Shown piece after piece: positions 7,822 to 61,761 of a stretch of 64,000 nt of DNA. Within the stretch, counting starts at the first letter, position 1. Each line of letters starts with the position of its first letter. The stretch comes from Asaia bogorensis. Lineage in GTDB: Bacteria > Pseudomonadota > Alphaproteobacteria > Acetobacterales > Acetobacteraceae. The position numbers and the translations under genes are program-made. The stretch covers positions 1-64,000 of the forward strand of contig CALQTN020000008.1 in assembly GCA_943333505.2 (NCBI GenBank), read 5' to 3'. The notes beneath the pieces were generated by a model. That model was not told the DNA's origin and ran no database searches. It saw only the letters and a program-made list of their open reading frames with translations.

Positions 7822-7843
7822 ACAGGTTCGGGGTTGGTCGGCT

Positions 7844-7878
7844 GTCCAATCGAAGCCGATTGAACGAATGATGATCTA
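7844..7878 (+). repeat. Half copy of the TA-flanked dispersed repeat
   Basis: The sequence matches the right-hand 35 bases of the full copies at 52952, 55873 and 61656, including the terminal ATGATGATC followed by TA. The left two thirds of the element are absent. It sits between the DUF805 fragment and the next hypothetical gene. Confidence 0.7.
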
Positions 7879-17836: not shown

Positions 17837-18661
17837 ATGCAAAACCTCGTCGGCAAAACTGCCTTTGTCACCGGCGGCGCCAGCGGCATTGGCCTCGGTC
17901 TGGTTCATGCCTTCCTGAATGAAGGCATGAACGTGGTGATCGCTGATATTGAGCCCGCTGCGTTGGACCGCATTAATCTCGGCGACCGGGTGCGCGGTGT
18001 GGTGTGCGATACCTCCAAACGTGCCTCCGTGATCGCCGCCCGCGACGCGGCGATCGCAGCTTTCGGCAATATCCATATCCTCTGCAACAACGCCGGCGTT
18101 GGCACTGGCGGGCGGATTGACGCGGTCGCGCCGGGTGCGTGGGATTGGCTGATGGGGGTGAACCTGATGGGGGTGATCCATGGCCTGAGCGAATTCGTGC
18201 CGCACATGAAAGCCCATGGCGAGGAATGCCATATCGTCAACACCGGCAGCATGGCGGGGATGAACGGGTTTCGCGGCATGGGCCCCTATTGCGCCAGCAA
18301 AGCGGCCGTCGTCAGCCTATCCGAAAGCCTTGCGAGCGAACTGGCCGGGACCAATATCGGCGTCAGCGTGCTGTGCCCTGGATCGGTCAACACCGAATTC
18401 TATGAAAGCCGGCGTAATGCGCCCGATACGGTGCCGCCACCGCCGGCAAACAGCCGCGAGGCCCGGGCAGCCGCCCAGGGTACCAAAATTTCGATGGACC
18501 ATGGCGTGCCGCCCGCCGCCGTGGCGGTGCGTGTGCTGCGGGCGATCCGCGACAAGGATCTTTACATCTTCACCCACGCCAATATGCGTCACATGGTGGA
18601 TGAGCGCTATGCGTTGCTGTCAGCCGCCTTCGACAAGGCTGCAGCGCACCCTGATGCCTAG
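17837..18661 (+). CDS. SDR-family oxidoreductase
   Basis: 274 residues. The Rossmann motif TGGASGIG is near residue 14, NNAGVG near 88, and the catalytic triad is Ser in NTGSMAG with the YCASK motif (Tyr-x3-Lys) near residue 156. The pattern is the classical NAD(P)H-dependent SDR; the substrate cannot be read from the sequence. The stop TAG (18659-18661) is formed by the TA plus first G of the dispersed repeat that follows, so the repeat inserted at or next to the original stop. Confidence 0.9.
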   Translation: MQNLVGKTAFVTGGASGIGLGLVHAFLNEGMNVVIADIEPAALDRINLGDRVRGVVCDTSKRASVIAARDAAIAAFGNIHILCNNAGVGTGGRIDAVAPGAWDWLMGVNLMGVIHGLSEFVPHMKAHGEECHIVNTGSMAGMNGFRGMGPYCASKAAVVSLSESLASELAGTNIGVSVLCPGSVNTEFYESRRNAPDTVPPPPANSREARAAAQGTKISMDHGVPPAAVAVRVLRAIRDKDLYIFTHANMRHMVDERYALLSAAFDKAAAHPDA

Positions 18662-18764
18662 ATCATCATTCGTTCAATCGGCTTCGATTGGACGAATGAT
18701 GATGGTTGTGAAAACAAGACTCTAGAGCGCATCTGTTGATTCAACTTCAACCGATCACGCTCTA
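18659..18764 (-). repeat. TA-flanked dispersed repeat, full copy (reverse orientation)
   Basis: 106 bases including both TA ends; the reverse complement of the copies at 52952, 55873 and 61656. It lies between two convergent genes and supplies the TAG stop of both: TA+G at 18659-18661 for the dehydrogenase and, on the minus strand, 18764-18762 for the response regulator. It contains a 19-bp stem (18662-18680 with 18685-18703, one G-U pair) with a GCTT loop, which could act as a transcription barrier in both directions. Confidence 0.85.
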
Positions 18765-27157: not shown

Positions 27158-27221
27158 GAGCGCGTGATCCATTGAAGTTGGATGAGCAGACACAATCCGA
27201 CCGATTGACCGAATGATGATC
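27158..27221 (+). repeat. Degenerate copy of the TA-flanked dispersed repeat
   Basis: The segment keeps the left end (GAGCGCGTGATCC then TTGAAGTTG), the AGCAGACAC block and the right end (CCGATTGACCGAATGATGATC), but about 40 internal bases are gone. The terminal ATC with the next A forms the complement of the RecQ TGA stop, so the repeat also shapes the end of that gene. Confidence 0.65.
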
Positions 27222-29046
27222 AGCGATCAGCCGTTTGCAGGACCTCAAGCACGCCACCCCCGTAGCGCGTCAATTTGGATGCCCCCACGCCCTTGATCAC
27301 ACCAAGCTCATCCAACGTGCCGGGCTGCACGGCAGCAATTTCGCGCAGCACCGTGTCGTGGAAAATCACGTAAGGCGGCACTGATTGCGCCTTGGCCTGA
27401 ACAGCACGCCATTTGCGCAAAGCCTCGAACCGCCCCTCATCGGCGCCGGACAGGCTGACCGCGGTCGCGGCGCCACCGCGTGCGACTTTGGTCTTACGCG
27501 GCGCCAGCGTGTCCTCACGCAGCATCACCTGTTCCTCGCCGCGCAGAATCGGGCGGGCTTTGTCCTCATCAAGGCTGAGCGTCGCGTATTCACCGCTATC
27601 GACGTTCAGTGCGCCCTTGGCGATCAACTGTCGCACCACGCCGCGCCAAAAGCCTTCAGGTCGGTCGCGACCGATACCGAATGTGGAGGTTTTATCGTGG
27701 CTCCAGCGCAGGATGGCGTCGGATGCCTCACCCATCAACACTGCAATGACGTGTTTGGCGCCAAAGCGCTGGCCAGTCTTATAGACGGCCGACAGCAGCT
27801 TTTGCGCCTCGACCGTGCCCTCGAACAAGCCAACCGGCGACACGCAATTGTCACAATGGCCGCAGGCCTGGGAAAATTCCTCACCGAAGCAGGCCAGGAG
27901 CGATCTGGTCCGGCATGCTGTGGTCTCGGTCAGCGAAATCATCGCCTCCAGCCGCACACGTTGGCTGCGCTTCTGGGTGTCCGGTGCATTCGAGGTCTGC
28001 AACCAGTAACGGGCCCGCGCGATGTCCTCGCCACCATAAAGCAGCAACGTCTCCGCCAGATCGCCATCGCGCCCGGCGCGGCCGATTTGCTGGTAGTAGG
28101 ATTCCGGGCTGTCCGGCATGTCGAGATGGGCGACAAACCGCACGTCCGGCCGATCAATCCCCATGCCGAACGCGATCGTCGCCACCATCACCATCGGCTC
28201 CCCGGCGCGGAACCGCATCGCGGCGGCGCGCTTGATTTCGGGCGCCAATCCGGCGTGGAACGCAACCGCCGGCAGACCGCGCTTGATCAGGCTTTCCGCC
28301 ATGCGCTCGGTCTTGGCACGGCTGCCGCAATAGACAATGCCGGCCTGCTGCGGGTGGCGCTTGAGGAATTCCAGCAATTGCGTGGTTTCCGACGACTTGG
28401 CGTCCGCGGTCAGGAACAAATTCGCGCGATGGAAACTGGCGGCAAAAACCGCAGCATCCTCCATCCCCAACGCGTGCAGAATATCGACCCGGGTGCGCGG
28501 ATCGGCGGTCGCGGTCAACGCAATCCGAGGCACGCCCGGGAATAGCCCGCGCAATGCCGCGAGTTCGCGATATTCCGGACGGAATTCATGTCCCCATTGG
28601 CTGACGCAATGCGCCTCATCGATCGCGATCAGCGCGATATCCTGGCGCTGCAGGCGCTCCATCGTCCCCGAGGACAGCAGGCGTTCCGGCGAGACATATA
28701 GAAGATCGAGGCGCCCGGCATCGAGGTCACGCCCGACCTGGCGGGCGGTATCGGGGTCCAATTCAGAATGCAGCGCGGCGGCGGCGACCCCGAACTGGCG
28801 CATGGCAGCAACCTGATCATCCATCAAAGCAATCAGGGGCGAGATCACCAAGGCCGTGCCGGGGCGACACAGGGCCGGCACCTGATAGCACAGCGACTTG
28901 CCACCACCGGTCGGCATCAGCACCAGCGCGTCACCGCCGCCCACCACGGTATCGATCGCCGCTTCCTGATGGCCGCGAAAATGGGAGAACCCAAAGACGC
29001 GGCCAAGGATTTCGCGCGGGCTGCCGTGGAGGTGAACCGCGTTCAT
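27220..29046 (-). CDS. recQ: ATP-dependent DNA helicase RecQ
   Basis: 608 residues. Helicase motifs: LMPTGGGKSLCYQVPAL (I), AIDEAHCVSQWGHEFRPEY (II plus the aromatic loop), ALTATADPRTR (III), GIVYCGSRAKTE (IV), VATIAFGMGIDRPDVRFV (V) and QQIGRAGRDG (VI). The RQC zinc site is CRTRSLLACFGEEFSQACGHCDNC (given here only to mark its four Cys), and an HRDC domain ends the protein. It unwinds 3' to 5' in recombination repair. The start overlaps the cydC stop by four bases, so it is read with cydDC. Confidence 0.96.
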   Translation of the reverse strand: MNAVHLHGSPREILGRVFGFSHFRGHQEAAIDTVVGGGDALVLMPTGGGKSLCYQVPALCRPGTALVISPLIALMDDQVAAMRQFGVAAAALHSELDPDTARQVGRDLDAGRLDLLYVSPERLLSSGTMERLQRQDIALIAIDEAHCVSQWGHEFRPEYRELAALRGLFPGVPRIALTATADPRTRVDILHALGMEDAAVFAASFHRANLFLTADAKSSETTQLLEFLKRHPQQAGIVYCGSRAKTERMAESLIKRGLPAVAFHAGLAPEIKRAAAMRFRAGEPMVMVATIAFGMGIDRPDVRFVAHLDMPDSPESYYQQIGRAGRDGDLAETLLLYGGEDIARARYWLQTSNAPDTQKRSQRVRLEAMISLTETTACRTRSLLACFGEEFSQACGHCDNCVSPVGLFEGTVEAQKLLSAVYKTGQRFGAKHVIAVLMGEASDAILRWSHDKTSTFGIGRDRPEGFWRGVVRQLIAKGALNVDSGEYATLSLDEDKARPILRGEEQVMLREDTLAPRKTKVARGGAATAVSLSGADEGRFEALRKWRAVQAKAQSVPPYVIFHDTVLREIAAVQPGTLDELGVIKGVGASKLTRYGGGVLEVLQTADR

Positions 29047-33487: not shown

Positions 33488-33560
33488 TTACCAACCCAAC
33501 CGCTCGCTGGACGCAAGGCTTCATCTTGCCCAACTGTGCGGGTGCGGGTTGAATGCGGCG

Positions 33561-34442
33561 ATGCACCCTGCCCCGCCAGCTTTTCCCGAGCCATTCCGCG
33601 TTTTGCGGCCGACGCGACAAAGCGTGCCGGTGGTGTTCAGCTCCGCCCATTCCGGCGCCGTCTACCCCGATGAATTCCTGGCGGCATCACGGCTTGACGC
33701 CCATCGCCTGCGGCGGTCCGAGGATAGTTTCGTCGATACCCTGTTTGCCGCTGCCCCGACCCATGGCGCACCGCTGATCTGCGCCAATTTTCCGCGCGCC
33801 TGGTGCGACGCCAACCGTGAACCGTGGGAGCTTGACCCGGCGATGTTCGAGGACACGCTGCCCGACTGGGTCAACGTGACCTCCCCGCGGGTCGCGGCAG
33901 GCCTGGGGACGGTGGCGAAACTGGTGGCGTCGGGGGAGACCATCTATCGCCGCCGGCTGCGCTTTGCCGAGGCCGAGGCGCGCGTCGCCGAATGCTGGCA
34001 GCCCTTCCATGAAGGGTTGGCCGGGTTGCTCGACAGCACCCACCGCCAGTTTGGCGCAGTGCTGCTGATCGATTGCCATTCGATGCCGGGCAACGCCTTG
34101 CCCGTCAAACCCGGCGCCGATTTCGTGCTGGGGGATGCGTACGGCACCGCGTGCAGCCCGATCATCACTGCCGGTGCCGAACAGATATTGCGCGCCATGG
34201 GCTACCGGGTGCGGCGCAACGACCCTTATGCCGGCGGCTTCATTACCCGCCATTACGGGCGTCCCGGCCGCGCCGTCCATGCCCTGCAAATCGAGATCAA
34301 CCGAGCGCTCTATATGGATGAAGACGCGATGACCCCAAGCGCGGGGTTTACCTGCCTCGCCGCCCAGATGACCGAGCTGGTGGCCGGGCTGGTCGAGCTT
34401 GCTGGCACGCTGTTCGTACCGGGCGCACTTGCCGCTGAATAG
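33561..34442 (+). CDS. N-formylglutamate amidohydrolase-family protein
   Basis: 293 residues from ATG 33561 (an in-frame TTG at 33549 is possible). Family motifs are VVFSSAHSGAVYPDEF near the start, ANFPRAWCDANREPWELDP, LLIDCHSMPG and RNDPYAGGFITRHYGRP with the probable zinc His residues. HutG-type enzymes release formate from N-formylglutamate in histidine breakdown; no hut genes are near, so another N-acyl amino acid is possible. The stop TAG coincides with a remnant of the dispersed repeat. Confidence 0.88.
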   Translation: MHPAPPAFPEPFRVLRPTRQSVPVVFSSAHSGAVYPDEFLAASRLDAHRLRRSEDSFVDTLFAAAPTHGAPLICANFPRAWCDANREPWELDPAMFEDTLPDWVNVTSPRVAAGLGTVAKLVASGETIYRRRLRFAEAEARVAECWQPFHEGLAGLLDSTHRQFGAVLLIDCHSMPGNALPVKPGADFVLGDAYGTACSPIITAGAEQILRAMGYRVRRNDPYAGGFITRHYGRPGRAVHALQIEINRALYMDEDAMTPSAGFTCLAAQMTELVAGLVELAGTLFVPGALAAE

Positions 34443-34459
34443 CGCGTGATCCGTTGAAA
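34440..34459 (+). repeat. Short remnant of the TA-flanked dispersed repeat
   Basis: The bases TAGCGCGTGATCCGTTGAA match the left end of the repeat family with one extra base, as in the copy at 27158. It supplies the TAG stop of the amidohydrolase and lies exactly where the truncated glycosyltransferase on the other strand loses its family sequence. Confidence 0.55.
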
Positions 34460-35238
34460 CGGCGATGGGCCGCCGCGCGACGGTCGGCAGGGCGACAGGC
34501 GATATAAATTAAGGACGGGGTCGCCTGAGCTCCCACTGCCACGGCGTTGCGAATTCTGGCAAAAATCGGCCGCAACATTGGGTGCGGCCGATGGAACCCG
34601 GTCATCGACCAAGGCACCAGAAGCTGCGCTGGCCGGACCTGTTCAGCCGGTGCAACGCCGCGCACTGGCCGCCCCTGCGTGATGCCCGTGAGGGTGAGGC
34701 CGTCCCGCTGCACCGCTGTCAAATGCGCTGGCAACAGAATACCATCGACTGCCAGCCCATCGATCTCCACTGCCGCGAGACGCCCGAGACCTTCCAATGT
34801 CCAATGATAATAATTGCCGTAATTGCCGCCAAGCAGGCTGAGCCAACGCCCTGGCAGCGCCGCCACCCGATCAACCGCCAACCCGATCGCATCGTGGCTG
34901 TCGTGATAATCCTGCAAATCCGGCGCAGTTTGCTGAAGTGTGTCGGACACCACCGCGTCGCCAATGCATATGATGCCGGCCCCGCCATGCACCAGCAGCT
35001 CGCAAAATCTCCGGTGCCAGGGTTGCACTGAGCCATAATCGGGGCTGTGCCAGTGGAGGTCGGGCGGCATTTCCTCGCTTGTTTGAAAATGCGGAAACAT
35101 GTGCTGCCCCGTCAGCAGCGGCGGCAGGCGAACAGTTTCCGCCACCATCAACGGCTCAGCGGTGACCAGGGGGTGGAACGCCGGATCGCGCAGCAATTCG
35201 GTGGTGGTGCGCTTCACGAAGCGGACATGCTGCGGCAT
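34454..35238 (-). pseudogene. Glycosyltransferase 61 (DUF563)-like gene, 3' truncated
   Basis: From ATG 35238 the minus strand encodes a family-like start (PQHVRFVKRTTTELL) and the signature GNYGNYYHWTLEGLGRLAAVE, then GRPVRGV and LLVPWSMTGFHRPHPML. The next recognisable piece, YIACRPADRRAAAHRRFNG, is the start of the conserved R-x-RR region, after which the sequence runs into the dispersed-repeat remnant and the antisense of the amidohydrolase gene. About 150 C-terminal residues are missing. Full-length members transfer sugars in polysaccharide or glycan assembly. Confidence 0.7.
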
Positions 35239-35328
35239 CAGGGGCTCCCGCCGCCTGTGCTGGCCGACCAACACGGATGGTGTAGGATTGCAGCAATCAT
35301 TTTTGCGCAGCAGTTTGAAGGACGAACC

Positions 35329-36726
35329 ATGTCGGACGCCGTCATCGCCCATCTTGTCGAGCAACGCGGGACGATTCTCGCCAGGCTCGACGCGTTGCTG
35401 CGCATTCCGAGCGTGTCCACCGACCCAGCCTTCGCGCCAGATATGGATCGGGCGCGTGCGATGCTGCTGGCGCGGCTCGTCGAAATCGGCCTTGACGACG
35501 TGCAATTGCTTGACGGTGGCGCTGGCCAACCGGCGGTTTATGGCACCTGGACCGGGGCACCGGGCAAGCCGACCTTAATTATCTATGGCCATTATGACGT
35601 GCAACCTGCTGATCCATTGGAATTATGGGTTACTCCGCCGTTCGAGCCGACCATCCGTGATGGGCGCATCTACGCGCGCGGCGCATCGGACGTAAAAGGA
35701 TCGACCACCATTGCGATCGAAACGGTGGCCGCCTTCCTCGCTGTTGCCGGCAAGCTGCCGATCAACGTAAAATTGTTCCTCGAAGGCGAAGAGGAGGTCG
35801 GCAGCCCGACCGCCCGCGTCATCGTTGACAAGTATCGCCATTTGCTCGGCGCCGACGCGATGCTGTCAGCCGATGGCGGCAAGGCCAGCCTCACGGTGCC
35901 GACGGTTGGCGTAGGCGGACGGGGCTGCACCGGGGTGGAAATTACCCTGCGCACGGGCACCAAGGACGGCCATTCCGGCCGCTATGGCGGGGCGGCGCGC
36001 AACGCGCTGCGGGAAATCTCGGCGCTGATGGCCGGCCTGCACGACGATCAGGGCCGTATTCTGGTGGCTGACTTCGGTGCCGACGCAACCCCGATCAGTA
36101 ACGCCGCCCGCGCTTCCGCCGCGGCCATCCCGATGGATGAAGCCGAATATCTCGGCAATATCGGCGGTACCCGCTGGGGCGATCCGAACTACACCGTGCG
36201 AGAACTCACCACCTTGCGGCCGACCATTGAGCTCAATGGCTTATGGGGTGGCTATACCGGCGCCGGTAGCAAGACCGTGCTGCCGGCGGAAGCCCATGCC
36301 AAGATCACCATGCGCCTGTCACCCGGCATGTCCCCGGACAAGGCGATGGCCGCCCTTCACGCCCATCTGCTGGCCAATCTTCCCAAGGGTGTGACCCTGG
36401 AAATGACCCAGGAGATGGACGGCACTGCCGCTAACAGCCTGGCCGAAGACCATCCGATGCTGCGCGTGGCGCTCGCCGTTCTGCAAACCATCCATGGCGC
36501 CCCGGCTTTCCCCGCCCGCGCCGGCGGCAGCATTCCGATCACCACCATTTTCAAGGAAATGATGGGGATTGATGCCATGACCTTTGGCCTCGCCATGCCT
36601 GACGACGATGTTCATGCGCCCAACGAAAGCTTTCGTCTGTCGGCGTTTGACGAGGGTTTGCGGTCCTGGCCAATGCTGTTCAGCGCGCTGGGCGCATTGT
36701 CGGCCGAGGAATTCAATAAAACCTAG
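35329..36726 (+). CDS. M20-family metallodipeptidase
   Basis: 465 residues from ATG 35329 with GAAGGA upstream; an upstream frame of 94 codons is antisense to the broken glycosyltransferase and is rejected. Metal-site motifs are IIYGHYDVQPAD, GASDVKGS and LEGEEEVGS, with the dimerisation domain starting near VGVGGRGCTGVEI and a late DDDVHAPNE His. This pattern matches the M20 carnosinase-like dipeptidases. The stop TAG is TA plus G of the adjacent repeat copy. Confidence 0.93.
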   Translation: MSDAVIAHLVEQRGTILARLDALLRIPSVSTDPAFAPDMDRARAMLLARLVEIGLDDVQLLDGGAGQPAVYGTWTGAPGKPTLIIYGHYDVQPADPLELWVTPPFEPTIRDGRIYARGASDVKGSTTIAIETVAAFLAVAGKLPINVKLFLEGEEEVGSPTARVIVDKYRHLLGADAMLSADGGKASLTVPTVGVGGRGCTGVEITLRTGTKDGHSGRYGGAARNALREISALMAGLHDDQGRILVADFGADATPISNAARASAAAIPMDEAEYLGNIGGTRWGDPNYTVRELTTLRPTIELNGLWGGYTGAGSKTVLPAEAHAKITMRLSPGMSPDKAMAALHAHLLANLPKGVTLEMTQEMDGTAANSLAEDHPMLRVALAVLQTIHGAPAFPARAGGSIPITTIFKEMMGIDAMTFGLAMPDDDVHAPNESFRLSAFDEGLRSWPMLFSALGALSAEEFNKT

Positions 36727-36828
36727 AGCGTGATGACCGTAGGTGGAATCACACGGCGGCCTGAATCACGCGACCAAACAAAGCGTTAGAGCATGATGAC
36801 CGCGCCTATCAGCAGTCATCATGCTCTA
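36724..36828 (+). repeat. TA-flanked dispersed repeat, 105-bp variant
   Basis: It begins TAGAGCGTGATGACC at the stop codon of the dipeptidase and ends CATCATGCTC followed by TA. The right part (36786-36829) is a perfect 15-bp inverted repeat, TTAGAGCATGATGAC with its complement, around a 14-base loop. The length and ends match the 106-bp family, but the interior differs, so it is a related subfamily or a composite of two insertions. It lies between convergent genes. Confidence 0.7.
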
Positions 36829-51084: not shown

Positions 51085-51213
51085 GTTCTTTTTGTGGACA
51101 AAAAGAACCAAAAAAACTTTGTGACTCTGTTGGCGTGGGTCTGCGGTGAGGTCCCGAGCCAACGGCAACAGAGTCGTAAAGTTTTTTGGCTTCTTTGTTT
51201 TCAAACAAAGAAG
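51085..51213. repeat. Composite palindrome between convergent genes
   Basis: Three nested inverted repeats fill 129 bases. A mini-hairpin at 51085-51108 (11-bp arms), a long one pairing 51108-51132 with 51166-51189 (CCAAAAAAACTTT and GACTCTGTTG blocks, one A unequal), and another mini-hairpin at 51190-51213 (CTTCTTTGTTT and complement). The A and T runs on both strands suit a bidirectional terminator; the modular symmetry also suits a small mobile element. Weak similar pieces occur at 17776-17800 and 48049-48105. Confidence 0.75.
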
Positions 51214-51221
51214 ACCTTGCC

Positions 51222-52004
51222 TTACGCCGCTTCCATCTGCTTAGAAAACGGACACCCAGCCTTGCGTTCTTTCCGCGCCGCCACCGCATAGGCGCCGAAC
51301 GGCCGATCAGGGCGGCTCGACGGCTCAGCGATTGAGGTATCGTAATCCGCCCAATCCGCCGCGCTGAAGCCTTCGAGGGTCGGCCCCACCTCCATGTCTT
51401 CAACGATCGCATCAGTATAGATCTGGCGCGGGATCGGCTGAATTTGTATCAGTGGGAAATCCGCGCGCAGCCGGATCGGCACGTTGGTGCGGGTCAGGCG
51501 CAAATTGGTGAATAGCGGCCCGAACCAGCGATCGGTTTCGACGATGCCTTCATAGGCAACGTAGCCGCCGGGCAGTGGCAGGTTGGCGGGCGGACGCACC
51601 AGCAAGCTCCAGCCGGGGGCAGACCGGGCGAACATGCCAGTCCAGATCTGCACCACGCCAGGTTCAGGCACCGCGGTCAGCATCGGTGGCGCACAGCCCT
51701 TCAGTTCATCCGGTGCTGCTGCATCGAAACGCGCCGAGAGGTTGGGAAATTGCGCGGCTGAAAGCGGCAGCCAGCCATCGACGCCGGCGTAGTTCCAGAA
51801 AATATCCTCGCCGTCCCACATCAATGACAAATCCATTGGGGCAAATCCGTACCAACCGAAGCCGGCGGCCTGGGTGATGGCGTCACAAAAGCGAAATGCA
51901 CGGGTTGGCATGGTGCCAAGGGCGGATTTGTCGGCGCGCTGCGGTGGGCGGGCAGATTCGATCACACGATAGAAACGGACGCCGGGGGACGGGGCTGCGA
52001 ACAT
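51222..52004 (-). CDS. DUF6065-like protein
   Basis: 260 residues from ATG 52004; longer frames upstream lack family features. The segments PPQRADKSALGTMPTRAFRFCDAI, AAGFGWYGFAPMDLSLMWDG and PGGYVAYEGIVETDRWFGPLF suggest DUF6065, a family without known function; I cannot confirm this by search. The C-terminus ends CPFSKQ. A peptide gene with a good ribosome binding site lies upstream on the same strand, separated by a hairpin, so the two may be related in expression. Confidence 0.6.
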   Translation of the reverse strand: MFAAPSPGVRFYRVIESARPPQRADKSALGTMPTRAFRFCDAITQAAGFGWYGFAPMDLSLMWDGEDIFWNYAGVDGWLPLSAAQFPNLSARFDAAAPDELKGCAPPMLTAVPEPGVVQIWTGMFARSAPGWSLLVRPPANLPLPGGYVAYEGIVETDRWFGPLFTNLRLTRTNVPIRLRADFPLIQIQPIPRQIYTDAIVEDMEVGPTLEGFSAADWADYDTSIAEPSSRPDRPFGAYAVAARKERKAGCPFSKQMEAA

Positions 52005-52279: not shown

Positions 52280-52650
52280 AATTGAGACTTGGATGTCCAA
52301 CGGCAATTCACTCATGCAACGACAATGTCTTGCCGCAAGTGGAACTTGCAACGCGACGGCGGTGTTTCTGAGATGAAATGGGGCTGGGCCGCGGACATGG
52401 CTTGCCCGTCGACGTCCGAACCATGCCCGTTACAAGTAATTTAGTCAAGCTTATTTTCCTAGCATAAGGAACATAGTCCGTAAAAAATTGGTTAATATTA
52501 CACTCTTGACAAACTTGGAAATGACGCGTAACGTTAGTGGCGACTTCAACGTTTAAATTTCTCGCGTGCTCCTGGGCGGAATAAATCATAAATATCAGCC
52601 TGTTGTGATAGGATCGGAAGCGTACGGGTGGAACACCAGCGGATGCCGGG
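52280..52650. other. Intergenic region, low GC at 52430-52600
   Basis: It holds the promoter side of the peptide gene. A block of about 170 bases is clearly AT-richer than the rest. On the plus strand a perfect TTGACA at 52505-52510 is followed after 17 bases by a weak TAACGT, a possible promoter reading into the dead transposase. A 93-codon minus-strand frame here lacks convincing features. Confidence 0.4.
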
Positions 52651-53359
52651 TTCCTCCGGGTCGATTTCGACGGCCGCCTGAAGCTGGAATTTCACAGGAC
52701 CCGCATCACCTCCGACGCCGGGTTACGCCCGTATCGTAAGTTGGACGACCACCACGTGATAGCCGCCGTTATGATACCAGCTTCAGCTATCGGGCTGAGT
52801 CACGGACTCGGTCCCGCAGGGTAGCGGTGAAGGTCGATCGGCACCCTGGCGAGTTGTATCCGCGCGTTGACTTCATCGTGACCAGCATGACCCGGCCGCC
52901 GGAACTTATGCCGCTGTTCTATGACCAGCGCGGCAGCGCGGAGCAGCACATTAGAGCGTGATCAGTTGAAGTTGAATCGGTAAACACACTCTAGAGTCTT
53001 GTTTTCACGATCATCTTTATCCGCCCAATCGAAGCCGATTGAACAAATGATGATCTAAGGAGGGCGAGAACGCAATCGTCTGGACCCGCCTGTACTGCCA
53101 CCGCTTTGCCGCCAATGCCGAGCCGCTGCAACGACACGCCCCGGCCTCCACCCTCGCTAACTTTCTCCGCACCCGGCCTCGCCCGAAGCCGATCAGCCAT
53201 TGGTCGATGACCACCTTGTGGGATCGACTGGTTAAGATCGTCCGTCATGGGCGCTCAATCACGTTCCAAAGGGCCGACTTTATGGTCTCGCGCGACTTGT
53301 TACAGAAAATCCTGGCCGCCATCGCCGCGCTGCGACCGTTGCCGCCCGCCCGGTGTTGA
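52651..53359 (+). pseudogene. IS1380-family transposase, internally deleted and interrupted
   Basis: Three pieces are recognisable. The N-terminal piece FLRVDFDGRLKLEFHRT then ITSDAGLRPYRKLDD (52651-52752). A frameshift and large internal deletion lead to a C-terminal piece RRVAVKVDRHPGELYPRVDF then IVTSMTRPPE and QRGSAEQHI (52779-52951). After the 106-bp repeat the frame resumes at 53057 with KEGENAIVWTRLYCHRFAAN and ends DLLQKILAAIAALRPLPPARC. Intact family members have about 430-480 residues. The element is dead and seems old, judged from the added insertion and many substitutions. Confidence 0.85.
52952..53057 (+). repeat. TA-flanked dispersed repeat inserted in the IS1380 transposase
   Basis: 106 bases with TA at each end. 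Removing it with one TA joins CAC AT to TA AGGAG, giving His-Ile-Lys-Glu in frame, exactly the QHIKEG motif of IS1380 transposases. This shows an insertion at TA with TA duplication, and makes the repeat mobile in the past, younger than the IS. Confidence 0.9.
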
Positions 53360-53820: not shown

Positions 53821-55875
53821 GTGAACTCCGAATTCTTCGACCGACAATCCGCAATAGAGCCAGGCCTATCGGGTTCGCACCTGGGACAGTCCGGGTCTTA
53901 TATTGATATAGCAACGGATGTTCCGCCCTACGCGCCGGGTGTGGTCTTGTCGATCCGCCTGCTCGGTCGCATCAGCGCCACCGATCGCCACGGCATCGAC
54001 GTTTTGCCGCGTGGGCGCAAAGCCCGGGCCTTGCTCGCCATCCTCGCGCTCGCAGCGCCGGCGCCGATCCTAAGGGAACAGGCCTGCCAGCTGCTCTGGA
54101 GCCGGCGCGACCGCGAACAGGCGCGGGCATCGCTTCGCCAATCCATTCACGAACTACAGGAGAGCCTGGCGGGGCTCGGTCGGGATGTTCTGATTATCGA
54201 GCGCGGATTGCTGCGGCTTCAGCGCGACGCAATCAGGCTCGATATGGATAGCTTCAACGATGAAGATCCGCCCGCCCGCACGTTGCCGCGTGCTACGCTC
54301 CTGGAAGACCTTACAGGACTTGATCAGGGGTTCGACCGCTGGCTCGAGGAACAGCGCCGCAAGATAACCCGTCAGATCGTCCAGCGTGCCGAAAATGTGC
54401 TCGCTCGGCCCGATTCAGAGCCTGGCTCCCCGCGCACGCGACAGGCGGCGGAATATCTGCTCGATCTTGATCCGGCGCATGAAGCGGCCGGTCAGGCGTT
54501 GATCCGCCTCCATATTCTGCATGGCAAGCGAGCCGCAGCCCTGCAGGTGTTCGACGCCTTGAGGGCGGCGCTGCTTGTGGCCGGCCTCACGCCGTCGGCA
54601 GAAACCGTTGAACTTGTGGCGGATCTACGGGGCGGCCTGCCATCCACGCCGACGAATATACGCCCGCCTGCGATCGTCAAGCGCATATTCCGGCTCGGCG
54701 TGTTGCCGTTTCGTACACTTGATGGCGGCACCGAGGATGGTCTCGCCGCCGGTCTGGCGGATGAGCTGACGACGGCGTTGTCGCGGTTTCGCTGGTTCTT
54801 CCTGGTCGCCTCGCCATCGCTTGCAGCCGTCGCGTCCGAGCCCCGCGATGGCAGTGCGCGCTGGCAGTCGCTCGATCTTGATTTTCTGGTGGAAGGCATG
54901 GTCCGCCATACCGACGATCGGGTGCGGATCAGCGCCCGTCTGCTCGATCTGCGTGCGGGGGGCGAAGTGGTTTGGGCGGTTCGCTTTGACCGGGTGGGCA
55001 CCGACATCATGTCGCTGCAAGACGATATCGCCGCCGTCATGGTCGCCCAGATCGATCCGCAATTATTGCTGCATGCCGGGCGCGGCAGCGCAGCCCGGCC
55101 AGGCGGATCGTTATCGGCCTATGAGCAGGTGCTGAGCACGATCCCGGCACTCTACAGATTAGAAAAAGGCAGTTTCGTCGCCGCCGGGGCGACCCTCAGG
55201 CAGGCAATAGCAGCCGATCCGTCCTATGCCGGGGCCTATTCCTGGTTGGCCTATTGGCATGTCTTCATGGTCGGGCAAGGCTGGGCCGCTGACCATGGCG
55301 CGACGTTGGACCAAGCCGGGCAGCTTGCGCAACATGGCGTAGCACTTGACCCATCCGATGCCCGCGCCCATGCAATTGCCGGACATGTCCGTGACATGCA
55401 GCATCTGCCGACCGAGCGGTCGCTGGATTTTCATCAACGCGCCTTGTCGCTCAATCCCAACCTGCCGATCGCCTGGGGTTTCGCCGGGCTCGCCCAGTCG
55501 CTATCGGGCGATCAGCAGGAGGCAATCCGGATGATCCGGCACGCCATGACGCTGTCGCCATTCGACCCTCAGGGGTTTTATTTTGAAGCCCAGTTGATGA
55601 TGCCCTATTTACTGCTGCGCGATTTTGACGCCGCCGCCGAGCTTGGCCGCCGTTCGATCGCGCTGAACCCCGCTCTGTCGTCAACCTATAAGGGTCTGCT
55701 TTCCGCACTCGGCCATCTCGGACGCAGCGAGGAAGCCGCAGCCGTGCGCCAACACCTCGACAAACTGGAACCAGGGTTTTCCCTCAGCGTGGCTGCACGA
55801 CGCTCCCCGTTACGGCGCGCGGCCGACATCGCGATTTATCTCGACGGATTGCGTGCCGGCGGGTTGCAGGATTAG
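53821..55875 (+). CDS. BTAD/winged-helix regulator with TolB-like and TPR domains
   Basis: 684 residues from GTG 53821. A winged helix at about 43-115 (SIRLLGRISATDRHG, then RKARALLAILALA) is followed by a bacterial transcriptional activation domain (about 130-255), a TolB/FlgO-like segment from about 290 (LGVLPFRTLDGG, GLADELTTALSRF) and C-terminal TPR helices (440-660). This layout is known in SARP-like and adenylate-cyclase-associated regulators. It is not in an operon; its targets and signal are unknown. The TAG stop comes from the dispersed repeat. Confidence 0.87.
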   Translation: MNSEFFDRQSAIEPGLSGSHLGQSGSYIDIATDVPPYAPGVVLSIRLLGRISATDRHGIDVLPRGRKARALLAILALAAPAPILREQACQLLWSRRDREQARASLRQSIHELQESLAGLGRDVLIIERGLLRLQRDAIRLDMDSFNDEDPPARTLPRATLLEDLTGLDQGFDRWLEEQRRKITRQIVQRAENVLARPDSEPGSPRTRQAAEYLLDLDPAHEAAGQALIRLHILHGKRAAALQVFDALRAALLVAGLTPSAETVELVADLRGGLPSTPTNIRPPAIVKRIFRLGVLPFRTLDGGTEDGLAAGLADELTTALSRFRWFFLVASPSLAAVASEPRDGSARWQSLDLDFLVEGMVRHTDDRVRISARLLDLRAGGEVVWAVRFDRVGTDIMSLQDDIAAVMVAQIDPQLLLHAGRGSAARPGGSLSAYEQVLSTIPALYRLEKGSFVAAGATLRQAIAADPSYAGAYSWLAYWHVFMVGQGWAADHGATLDQAGQLAQHGVALDPSDARAHAIAGHVRDMQHLPTERSLDFHQRALSLNPNLPIAWGFAGLAQSLSGDQQEAIRMIRHAMTLSPFDPQGFYFEAQLMMPYLLLRDFDAAAELGRRSIALNPALSSTYKGLLSALGHLGRSEEAAAVRQHLDKLEPGFSLSVAARRSPLRRAADIAIYLDGLRAGGLQD

Positions 55876-55978
55876 AGCGTGATCCGTTGAGGTTGAATCA
55901 GCAGACACGCCCGAGAGTCTCGTTTTCACGATCGTCTTGATCCGTCCAAGCGAAGCCGGTTGAACGAATGATGATCTA
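55873..55978 (+). repeat. TA-flanked dispersed repeat, full copy
   Basis: 106 bases including both TA ends; starts TAGAGCGTGATCCGTTGA and ends AACGAATGATGATC plus TA. Its first three bases are the stop codon of the regulator gene. It lies between the regulator and the convergent comM gene. Confidence 0.88.
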
Positions 55979-57603: not shown

Positions 57604-58383
57604 ATGGACCCGGCAGAATTGTCACCCAACGACATCCTCGCGCTGCTCGATGCGGGTGCGCTGCGGCTGCGCTATCAGCCGATTGTGCGCCTCGCGGATC
57701 GTGGTGTGGTTGGGTTCGAGGCGCTGGCGAGATTGGAACATCCGACCCGTGGCACCTTGCCGGCGCGCGATTTCGTGCCACAGCTTGAATCGCACGGCCA
57801 TGGCTGGACCTTGTTTACCCATGTGCTCACCACGGCACTGAGCGAATGGCACAGCGTCTTCGCACCCGATGACCGGCTGACCCTGTCGCTGAACACCCCA
57901 CTTGACGTGCTGCGCGATCCGCTCTTACCCGACCTGCTGCGATCTGGCTGCGAGACGAGTGCCGTCCCCGTAAACCTGCTGGTGCTTGAGCTCACCGAAA
58001 CCCAGGTGGTGCCCGATGCCGATCTGCTGCGCCGTCCGCTGACAGTGCTGCGCCGGCTCGGGGTTGCCCTGGCGGTTGACGACATCCTGCCGGTGACGCG
58101 CGAGCCTGGCGGGTTGCTCGGGTTGCCGTTCGGTATGCTGAAGCTCGACAAGCGGGTGGTGCGGGAAGCCGCCGATAGCGCGTCGGCCCGCGCCTTCATC
58201 ACCAGCAGCCTGAATATCGGCCACACGGTGGGGATGCGGGTCGTGGCCGAGGGGGTCGAGGACGCGGCCATCTGGCACCGGATGGCCGGCCTTGGCTGCG
58301 ATCAGGCGCAGGGGTTTTTCATTGCCCGACCGCTGCCGGCGGCGGCGGTCGGACTGTGGCGCGAGGTCTGGTCGAAAGGTTAG
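57604..58383 (+). CDS. EAL-domain protein, likely cyclic di-GMP phosphodiesterase-like
   Basis: 259 residues, only the EAL domain. Present: YQPIVRL, VVGFEALARLEHP (EAL Glu), SLNTP (Asn), LELTET (Glu), LAVDDI (Asp-Asp), KLDKRVV (Lys) and VAEGVED (Glu), then GCDQAQGFFIARPL. The DDFGTGYS loop is replaced by DDILPVTREPGG, which in known EAL enzymes controls dimer and metal coordination, so activity may be altered. No sensor or membrane domain is attached. The TAG stop is formed by the short repeat copy. Confidence 0.88.
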   Translation: MDPAELSPNDILALLDAGALRLRYQPIVRLADRGVVGFEALARLEHPTRGTLPARDFVPQLESHGHGWTLFTHVLTTALSEWHSVFAPDDRLTLSLNTPLDVLRDPLLPDLLRSGCETSAVPVNLLVLELTETQVVPDADLLRRPLTVLRRLGVALAVDDILPVTREPGGLLGLPFGMLKLDKRVVREAADSASARAFITSSLNIGHTVGMRVVAEGVEDAAIWHRMAGLGCDQAQGFFIARPLPAAAVGLWREVWSKG

Positions 58384-58442
58384 ATCATCATCCGATCGGC
58401 TTGCCTATTCGATCGGATGATGATCGTGAAAGCAAAAATCTA
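58381..58442 (-). repeat. TA-flanked dispersed repeat, 62-bp deletion form
   Basis: It starts TAGATCATCATCCG and ends AAAAATC plus TA; the left half of the full repeat is missing. A perfect 16-bp stem (58383-58398 with 58410-58425) closes an 11-base loop. A T-to-C and matching A-to-G change against the copy at 18659 keep the pairing. It provides the TAG stops of both flanking convergent genes. Confidence 0.8.
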
Positions 58443-60416: not shown

Positions 60417-60539
60417 ACAACACTCCTACGGCATGGGCCGATCGTTCGATCATGCCCATTTCCAGATACGAATGCCGCCTACGGGTCTTACTCCCGCTGC
60501 TCCGGTGCACCTCGCCCGACGCGCGCGCGCAGTCTCGAT

Positions 60540-60712
60540 GGCGGCCGGTCTCCTGGCTCACGACGTTGGGACATCATCCCGGCCGGCCCCGCCTTCTCGT
60601 GCATCGCACAATGGCGTCTGGGGTTGGCACGCCGCGTACAGTTGCGAGGGCAGCGGCGGTTTCCCGCACTTCCCGTTTCAGCCCTTGCGGGCCACCGTCA
60701 TCTGCACTTAGC
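60540..60712 (-). promoter_or_regulatory. Cobalamin riboswitch upstream of btuB
   Basis: Read on the minus strand, the leader contains CTGAAACGGGAAGT, GCTGCCCTCGCAACTGT and the B12 box AGCCAGGAGACCGGCC, the conserved landmarks of the adenosylcobalamin aptamer in the right order. It lies about 125 bases before the btuB start and should switch off btuB when cobalamin is plentiful. Confidence 0.93.
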
Positions 60713-60770
60713 CTGCACGACGCGCCGCATTGCGGCAACCCCCAGAAAACCTTCAGATCCGGAATGACCG

Positions 60771-61655: not shown

Positions 61656-61761
61656 TAGAGCGTGATCGGTTGAAGTTGGTTCAGCAGACACGCCCTAGAG
61701 TCTTGTTTTCACGACCATCTTTATCCGTCCAATCGAAGCCGATTGAACGAATGATGATCTA
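61656..61761 (+). repeat. TA-flanked dispersed repeat, full copy
   Basis: 106 bases with both TA ends, nearly identical to the copies at 52952 and 55873. It lies upstream of ruvX and downstream of arfB, so it is not at a stop codon. Its closeness to the ruvX start could affect that promoter. Confidence 0.88.

Follow-up and report, generated by a model that had tools for sequence, protein, structure and literature searches.

The Rhizobium intergenic mosaic elements (RIME) are mosaic palindromic repeats of alphaproteobacteria, and the sequence GANTC is the site of methylation by CcrM. In the accessible portion of one report, the RUP repeats of Streptococcus pneumoniae are 107 bp in length and number about 108 copies, their ends are said to resemble those of IS630-Spn1, and they have TA in their target and are frequently located within the genes of other insertion sequences (PMC2229807). 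The CIR repeats of Caulobacter and other alphaproteobacteria are depicted in the same portion as sequences of about 110 bp with two inverted-repeat arms and a linker, where GANTC is present at or in the terminal loop of one arm, and their mobility was left open there (PMC2229807). For Brucella, the accessible parts of three papers describe the palindromic repeats Bru-RS1 and Bru-RS2 (103–105 bp), in or near which insertions of IS711 at YTAR are found (PMC3163539, PMC2266754, PMC2267715).

We have examined a 64-kb stretch of DNA (the window; positions 1–64000 of contig 8) from the draft genome (G000; 4.52 Mb in 151 contigs) of an uncultured Acetobacteraceae, which contains copies of a short repeat composed of two modules, a and R (a-R). 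As generally described, RIME is similar to this repeat in being mosaic, palindromic and alphaproteobacterial. As far as the accessible text goes, CIR resembles it in length, in the two arms with a linker and perhaps in GANTC, this likeness being one of description, and RUP resembles it, again by description, in size, copy number, IS630-like ends, TA target and location in IS genes. However, RUP belongs to another phylum, and neither a two-arm form nor GANTC is described for it in that text (PMC2229807). The link with Bru-RS is a sub-threshold match to the Rfam family RF02600, a possible Bru-RS copy. The elements named ISRm10-1 and their relatives (IS630 family; Sinorhizobium, Rhizobium, Acidiphilium, and Azospirillum) share with the repeat the ends TAGAGC..GCTCTA and, in the left end, a GANTC at base 23, but they are autonomous, about 1.05 kb long and encode a transposase, whereas the repeat is a gene-free unit with two hairpins. 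In this comparison the repeat appears to join two known kinds of elements, viz. IS630 MITEs such as RUP and the two-arm repeats of alphaproteobacteria. With a probability of about 0.85, we consider it to be a non-autonomous IS630-type transposon in which a linker connects the hairpin arms a and R (104 bp plus TA), and which is presumably moved in trans.

The element inside an IS1380 transposase remnant

The initial annotation of this DNA reported a repeat that interrupts an IS1380-family transposase and whose removal with one TA restores the reading frame, and both observations are borne out. The full two-arm element extends over 52952–53057 on the forward strand (TA at 52952–52953, the element, and TA at 53056–53057; 104 bp plus the doubled TA, or 106 bp with both TAs) in the target TTAA. 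Module a (52952–52993, +), an TAGAGCGTGATC..CTCTA arm whose outer end is similar to IS630 left ends, carries GAATC, a form of GANTC, from base 23. Module R (52992–53057, +) comprises the linker TAGAGTCTTGTTTTCAC and a hairpin, and its terminus is GATGATCTA. The IS1380 remnant is recognized before the insertion at 52740–52951 (+; Pfam PF13701 positions 274–335; NCBIfam NF033539), and after it at 53058–53359 (+; PF13701 positions 340–434; NF033539), up to the stop. Excision of 104 bp (the element and one TA) gives ..EQHIKEGENAIVWTRL.., with a single open frame over the joint, where the Pfam profile DDE_Tnp_1_4 is also unbroken (52740–52949 corresponding to 274–335 and 53060–53356 to 340–434). 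The NCBIfam profile transpos_IS1380 matches in two pieces (E 7.7e-8 and 4.9e-5), which are under the whole-protein cut-off, as expected of fragments. The host gene is a remnant from whose interior about 680 bp have been deleted, between the N-terminal piece (52638–52749, +; identified by DNA matches to locus L067 and others, with no profile match alone) and the next one, and a stop is present upstream of the joint in the rejoined frame. The continuity of frame and profile shows insertion at this site.

This site had also been put forward as proof of a TA duplication. In 22 uninterrupted IS1380 relatives, all of them distant (67.6–81.2% identity), the joint dinucleotide is CA in all 21 gapless alignments, while the remaining relative, which has a gap near the joint, reads ATCAAA. 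As TA is present in none of the 22, the finding that the initial annotation had named as a refutation is made in these distant copies, and the IS1380 site alone is not proof of TA duplication. A single synonymous change from ATC to ATT prior to the insertion would account for the CA in the relatives, and for this site we infer the duplication from other copies. The host site cannot be compared in the congeners G001 and G003, because no aligned counterpart of 52.5–53.8 kb was found in them. The suggestion of an IS630-type passenger was therefore right; the proof offered for it was weaker than claimed, and stronger proof is provided by other copies. The description of the repeat as a short, non-coding, MITE-like passenger holds insofar as 106 bp are too short for a transposase; however, it is not a simple MITE but a two-hairpin unit, apparently of a wider alphaproteobacterial class.

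Empty sites, target sites, and IS630-type ends

Duplication of TA, which the initial annotation had expected at other copies, is observed both at other loci of this genome and in rhizobial relatives. The full element at 55873–55978 (+) is missing in both G001 and G003, where TA is present at the joint. The site of the solo R-type element at 58381–58442 (−) is occupied in G000 and G001, and a single TA is found in the empty sites of G003 (GGGT-TA-AAAG) and G004 (GGGT-TA-GAAC), the flanks in the latter being more diverged. Two other full copies are located at 61656–61761 (+), which is absent from the aligned stretches of G003 and G004 with flanks too diverged for an exact joint, and at 18659–18764 (−), where the flanks in relatives are too diverged for the joint to be read. 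For these two copies, for a sister element composed of modules b and c (36724–36828, −; 105 bp with both TAs) and for the copy at position 122768 of contig 2, no base-exact empty sites were found in the relatives.

The same result was obtained for related repeats on Rhizobium plasmids. A 104-bp element that is present in one R. leguminosarum sequence (L384) is absent from another (L388, and also L389, which shows an additional small gap), and in R. phaseoli a 104-bp element present in L386 is absent from L390–L392 (98.3–99.0% identical); in both cases TA is doubled in CTAG, and the plasmid stretches compared at the two sites are about 97–99% identical. The joint was not clean in L393, a more distant sequence in the R. 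phaseoli comparison, or at a third site (L385/L398 versus L396/L397), where the empty allele is TT, and among the six rhizobial loci taken first, with L383 left out, L382 gave no usable empty site. TA flanks the element on both sides in 46 of 60 full copies and is missing on one or both sides in the other 14. The target of these 46 is YTAR in 43 copies, compared with 9.1% in the background, and CTAG in 18 copies, compared with 1.9%. The empty sites thus show the duplication of TA, and the element boundaries and the target consensus are likewise established.

The comparison of terminal repeats, rather than TA, points to IS630. The accessible parts of two papers describe TA duplication at YTAR also for IS711, so that this duplication is not, as had been held, a mark of IS630/Tc1/mariner transposition alone (PMC3163539, PMC2266754). 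The outer ends of the element are TAGAGCGTGATCCG.. and TAGATCATCATTCG..; in the copies from G001 and G003 the R end reads TAGAGCATCATCCGATC.., which is nearer to the IS630 ends than TAGATCATCATTCG. The initial annotation had called for a search for IS630 elements with resembling terminal repeats, and these were found: ISRm10-type elements have the ends TAGAGC..GCTCTA, and the similarity of the repeat to them extends, at each of its outer ends, past TAGAGC. The left end agrees with the left ends of the IS630 elements L285 (from G023) and L288 (from G019) at 15 of 21 positions beyond TAGAGC (shuffle p 5e-5 and <5e-5, respectively), and the R end with the left end of an IS630 element of the same genome (on contig 117) at 14 of 22 (p 1.5e-4), these being the best matches among 15 left ends, with uncorrected p values. 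The right end of module a agrees with L285 at 7 of 12 positions beyond TAGAGC (p 0.045), and its final 13 bases are identical to those of this IS630; for the linker end of R, the similarity to IS630 right ends was not significant.

The contig 117 element (PF13358 search; NCBIfam transpos_IS630) has the ends TAGAGCATCATCG.. and ..AAAATGCTCTA, which agree as inverted repeats at 16 of 24 positions, and it sits exactly at the left TA of an R module. A second IS630 end, named from its similarity to L277 by eye, is located at the right TA of an a-R copy (L332), and an IS630-family gene with different ends lies between modules b and c at another locus (L155). Transposases of the contig 117 type are present in 22 of 60 genomes (E 1e-20), and GCTCTA directly follows the transposase in 18 of 30 IS630 loci. 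The draft genome yielded no intact IS630 whose ends match closely, the best left-end matches being in other genera; the congeners G001–G004 gave no transposase match at E 1e-20, and an inverted-repeat scan at 16/22 found no ends for the ten IS630 loci of the genome itself. The rhizobial IS630 relatives carry the name ISRm10-1, and the two that were read have the same type of ends and are both located in CTAG; the preference of IS630 for CTAG is already in print, as seen from a title cited in the accessible part of PMC2170065. In the IS630 genes of L154 (~590) and L285 the transposase is encoded in two frames whose overlap contains a run of A, a layout reminiscent of programmed frameshifting.

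Based upon these similarities, both outer ends of the repeat would derive from the terminal repeats of ISRm10-type IS630 elements, and an ISRm10-type transposase acting in trans would cut the element out and insert it at TA in YTAR, best in CTAG, with doubling of TA. The identity of the moving transposase and the cut-and-paste chemistry are presumed steps in this scheme; cut-and-paste is established for ISY100 according to the accessible part of PMC2170065. Since the element ends read TAG and CTA, insertion into CTAG would leave CTAG at each end, where later elements could land and stack. Stacking at a terminal TA is shown once, in Rhizobium, where a different two-arm element has inserted exactly at the terminal TA of the resident, with TA doubled (L394 versus L387); L395 has the same arrangement with a few extra bases. 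Outside the modules, just one tetramer is rarer than CTAG in a 461-kb sample of the draft genome (contig 1, the window, and parts of contigs 2 and 3), and 34 of the 183 CTAG sites fall in the 3.9 kb of modules and their edges. CTAG is rare, yet each insertion into it makes two, which provides a simple reason for the mosaic, stacked repeats.

Modules, distribution, and a probable wider class of two-arm repeats

Sequences matching the right end of the element (up to three mismatches) occur seven times in the window, where 0.05 are expected. In the entire genome there are 116 right-end matches with at most one mismatch (2 for the reversed control) and 475 such matches to the TAGAGCGTGAT end (16 in the control). 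The main units in the 461-kb sample are a-R (seven plain copies) and the sister b-c (nine plain copies), and the sample also holds solo R modules and stacked forms such as a-c-R, c'-a-R, b-c-c, and a-R-c'-b'. The window contains, in addition to the copies already described, a truncated R module (7841–7878, +), an element with an internal deletion (27159–27223, +) and the end of module a alone (34440–34457, +). The stretch 34440–35327 was considered as a possible insertion sequence and rejected, as it is a gene region behind the module a end and no IS was seen. A different repeat of about 140 bp is located at 51085–51225, with dozens of matches among those listed in the congeners, including G002, in which a-R was not found.

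Modules R also form head-to-tail arrays with a spacing of exactly 64 bp. Arrays with this spacing were seen at L055, L078, L006, L059, and L002, and several contigs end close to such copies, so that the arrays may exceed their assembled length. An origin of the tandem R modules by nested self-insertion is disfavoured by the single orientation and 64-bp spacing of the arrays. Repeated separate insertion of a into R is similarly disfavoured, as in all 12 clusters of the 461-kb sample that contain both modules a precedes R in the same orientation. A Mantel test of the distances among a against those among R was uninformative, since its own controls gave no signal.

A search of 147 genomes (E 1e-8) detected the element in G000 and three of its four congeners (G001, G003, and G004), and weakly in G023; in the fourth congener, G002, it was not found at this threshold. 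When named genomes were scanned with the pattern of module a, one of them matched, an Acetobacteraceae MAG, in four stretches. The window element gave no match in a viral pattern scan, a plasmid search or a phage search, and the right flank in IS1380 gave none in plasmids.

Two stable hairpins are seen in the predicted folds of a-R, of b-c, and of three rhizobial repeats, over about 100–110 bp with the linker. At L098, L051, L084, and L118 the hairpins of R are perfect palindromes or nearly so, and the perfected arm can be either of the two, which would fit copying of one arm from its partner, as by template switching.

The Rfam family RF02600 (BASRCI27, the Brucella sRNA CI27) is matched by b-c with 35.8 bits (E 2.4e-4) and by a-R with 30.1 bits (E 0.007); both scores are below its gathering cut-off of 59.8 bits, and a gathering scan of the window did not return this family. 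The matches span the model from its first to its last position, with the last third of the model falling in the flanks, and at E values of up to 1 they are found in 6 of 12 loci, one of them on the opposite strand. The layout shared with RF02600 consists of a hairpin, a linker of the GAAAACAA type, and a hairpin starting with TA(A/G)AGCG. When the first 119 bases of the RF02600 consensus were used as a query, 137 plasmid records were matched, of which 124 are from Rhizobium. The rhizobial repeats together with the Brucella sRNA match suggest that the repeat belongs to a class of two-arm repeats found in alphaproteobacteria.

GANTC at base 23, competing explanations, and stop codons

The presence of GANTC at a fixed place in the left ends of alphaproteobacterial IS630 elements, and in many of the repeats, appears to be a new observation. 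Among 18 IS630 left ends, 16 have a GANTC whose first base is base 23; it starts nowhere else in bases 7–26, whereas in 5000 shuffles the largest count at any one position was 3. These 18 ends were obtained from 32 IS630 loci, of which 14 gave none, by a rule that requires GATTC at bases 31–100, and hence only bases 7–30 were tested for GANTC. In further alphaproteobacterial IS630 elements found by inverted repeats alone, GANTC is at base 23 in five of five, and the opposite end lacks it over its first 62 bases; end pairs were obtained from five of six loci (L406 gave none), and L399 and L400, which gave no pairs or false pairs by this method, are counted only among the 18 left ends. Two IS630 relatives from Nostoc, which is not known to have CcrM, have no GANTC in the first 62 bases at either end.

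Among the repeats, GANTC is at base 23 in 36 of 59 a-R copies, 13 of 18 c ends, 7 of 12 congener copies and 4 of 6 rhizobial repeats, whereas the a ends of the 461-kb sample retain it in only 6 of 14 cases; the linker carries GANTC in 41 of 59 a-R copies, and its N is the most variable column among these copies. Selection on GANTC within copies is unsupported, as the counts of 36 and 41 out of 59 are no higher than what average columns give, and its presence in the passengers may be due to inheritance alone. Dam gates the transposition of IS10 through hemimethylated ends. By analogy, it is conceivable, but in our estimate somewhat improbable, that a CcrM site was built into one end (bases 23–27) of ISRm10-type IS630 elements and inherited by the two-arm repeats of the CIR/Bru-RS class, with transposition gated by the cell cycle. 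Ends that are hemimethylated just behind the replication fork would then time the transposition of the IS and its passengers, and the two-arm repeats would carry GANTC because their ends derive from IS630 transposons. If this is true, the "CcrM-associated" character of such repeats is a feature of the transposon and not a regulatory one; the fixed position of GANTC makes this association directly testable.

Movement by an IS5-type (IS427/IS711-like) transposase, which can also duplicate TA at YTAR, should be considered in view of the IS711 insertions into this target and the association of IS711 with Bru-RS repeats in the accessible parts of two papers (PMC3163539, PMC2266754). Moreover, an element of the draft genome that encodes a PF13586 transposase has its end, GGGTCTGTTGAG.., directly at the terminal TA of two copies (L330 and L087), and a similar end, unmatched to a transposase, is present at two more (L331 and L085). 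However, these GGGTCTGTTGAG.. ends are, by eye, unlike TAGAGC.., whereas the IS630 ends resemble those of the repeat beyond TAGAGC and share GANTC at base 23 with it, and we regard an IS5-type transposase as unlikely.

It is very unlikely, in our view, that the repeat is a structured RNA or a protein-binding site under selection, which has spread mainly by recombination and without transposition. Two stable hairpins are predicted, the sub-threshold match is to a Brucella sRNA, and copies are positioned at gene ends, all of which would favour it. Conservation of the hairpins by compensatory changes was unsupported: in 49 hairpins their own arms do not in general pair better than swapped ones (−18.2 versus −16.6 kcal/mol, p 0.66), and GANTC is kept no better than average columns. 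The empty sites with TA duplication speak against this explanation as the main cause of the spread; a function acquired after insertion is possible. We see a minimal chance for hairpin-dependent movement of the REP/RAYT or IS200/IS605 kind, with no target duplication and TA as part of a fixed recognition sequence: the large hairpin, the non-identical ends, and the R arrays at exactly 64 bp would fit it, but the YTAR target is symmetric on both flanks and the ends resemble those of DDE transposons. For repeats with CIR-like architecture, the empty sites and IS630-like ends of the IS630-type passenger described here provide a concrete answer on mobility, the CIR sequences themselves being outside this comparison.

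The insertions also have a consequence for reading frames. An open frame of 100 codons or more is met by 50 of the 100 element ends inspected, and for 35 of the 50 the TAG of the element is the in-frame stop, compared with 191 of 723 background YTAR sites; this indicates that insertions in stop codons are tolerated or favoured. Within the window, stops are formed in this manner at 34442 by the module a end (ORF 33549–34442), at 36726 by the sister element b-c (ORF 35047–36726), and at 55875 by the full element at 55873 (ORF 53821–55875). Elements that land in stop codons keep the stop, which helps to explain the high copy load of this genome. The window additionally contains a cobalamin riboswitch at 60526–60714 on the reverse strand (89.2 bits).
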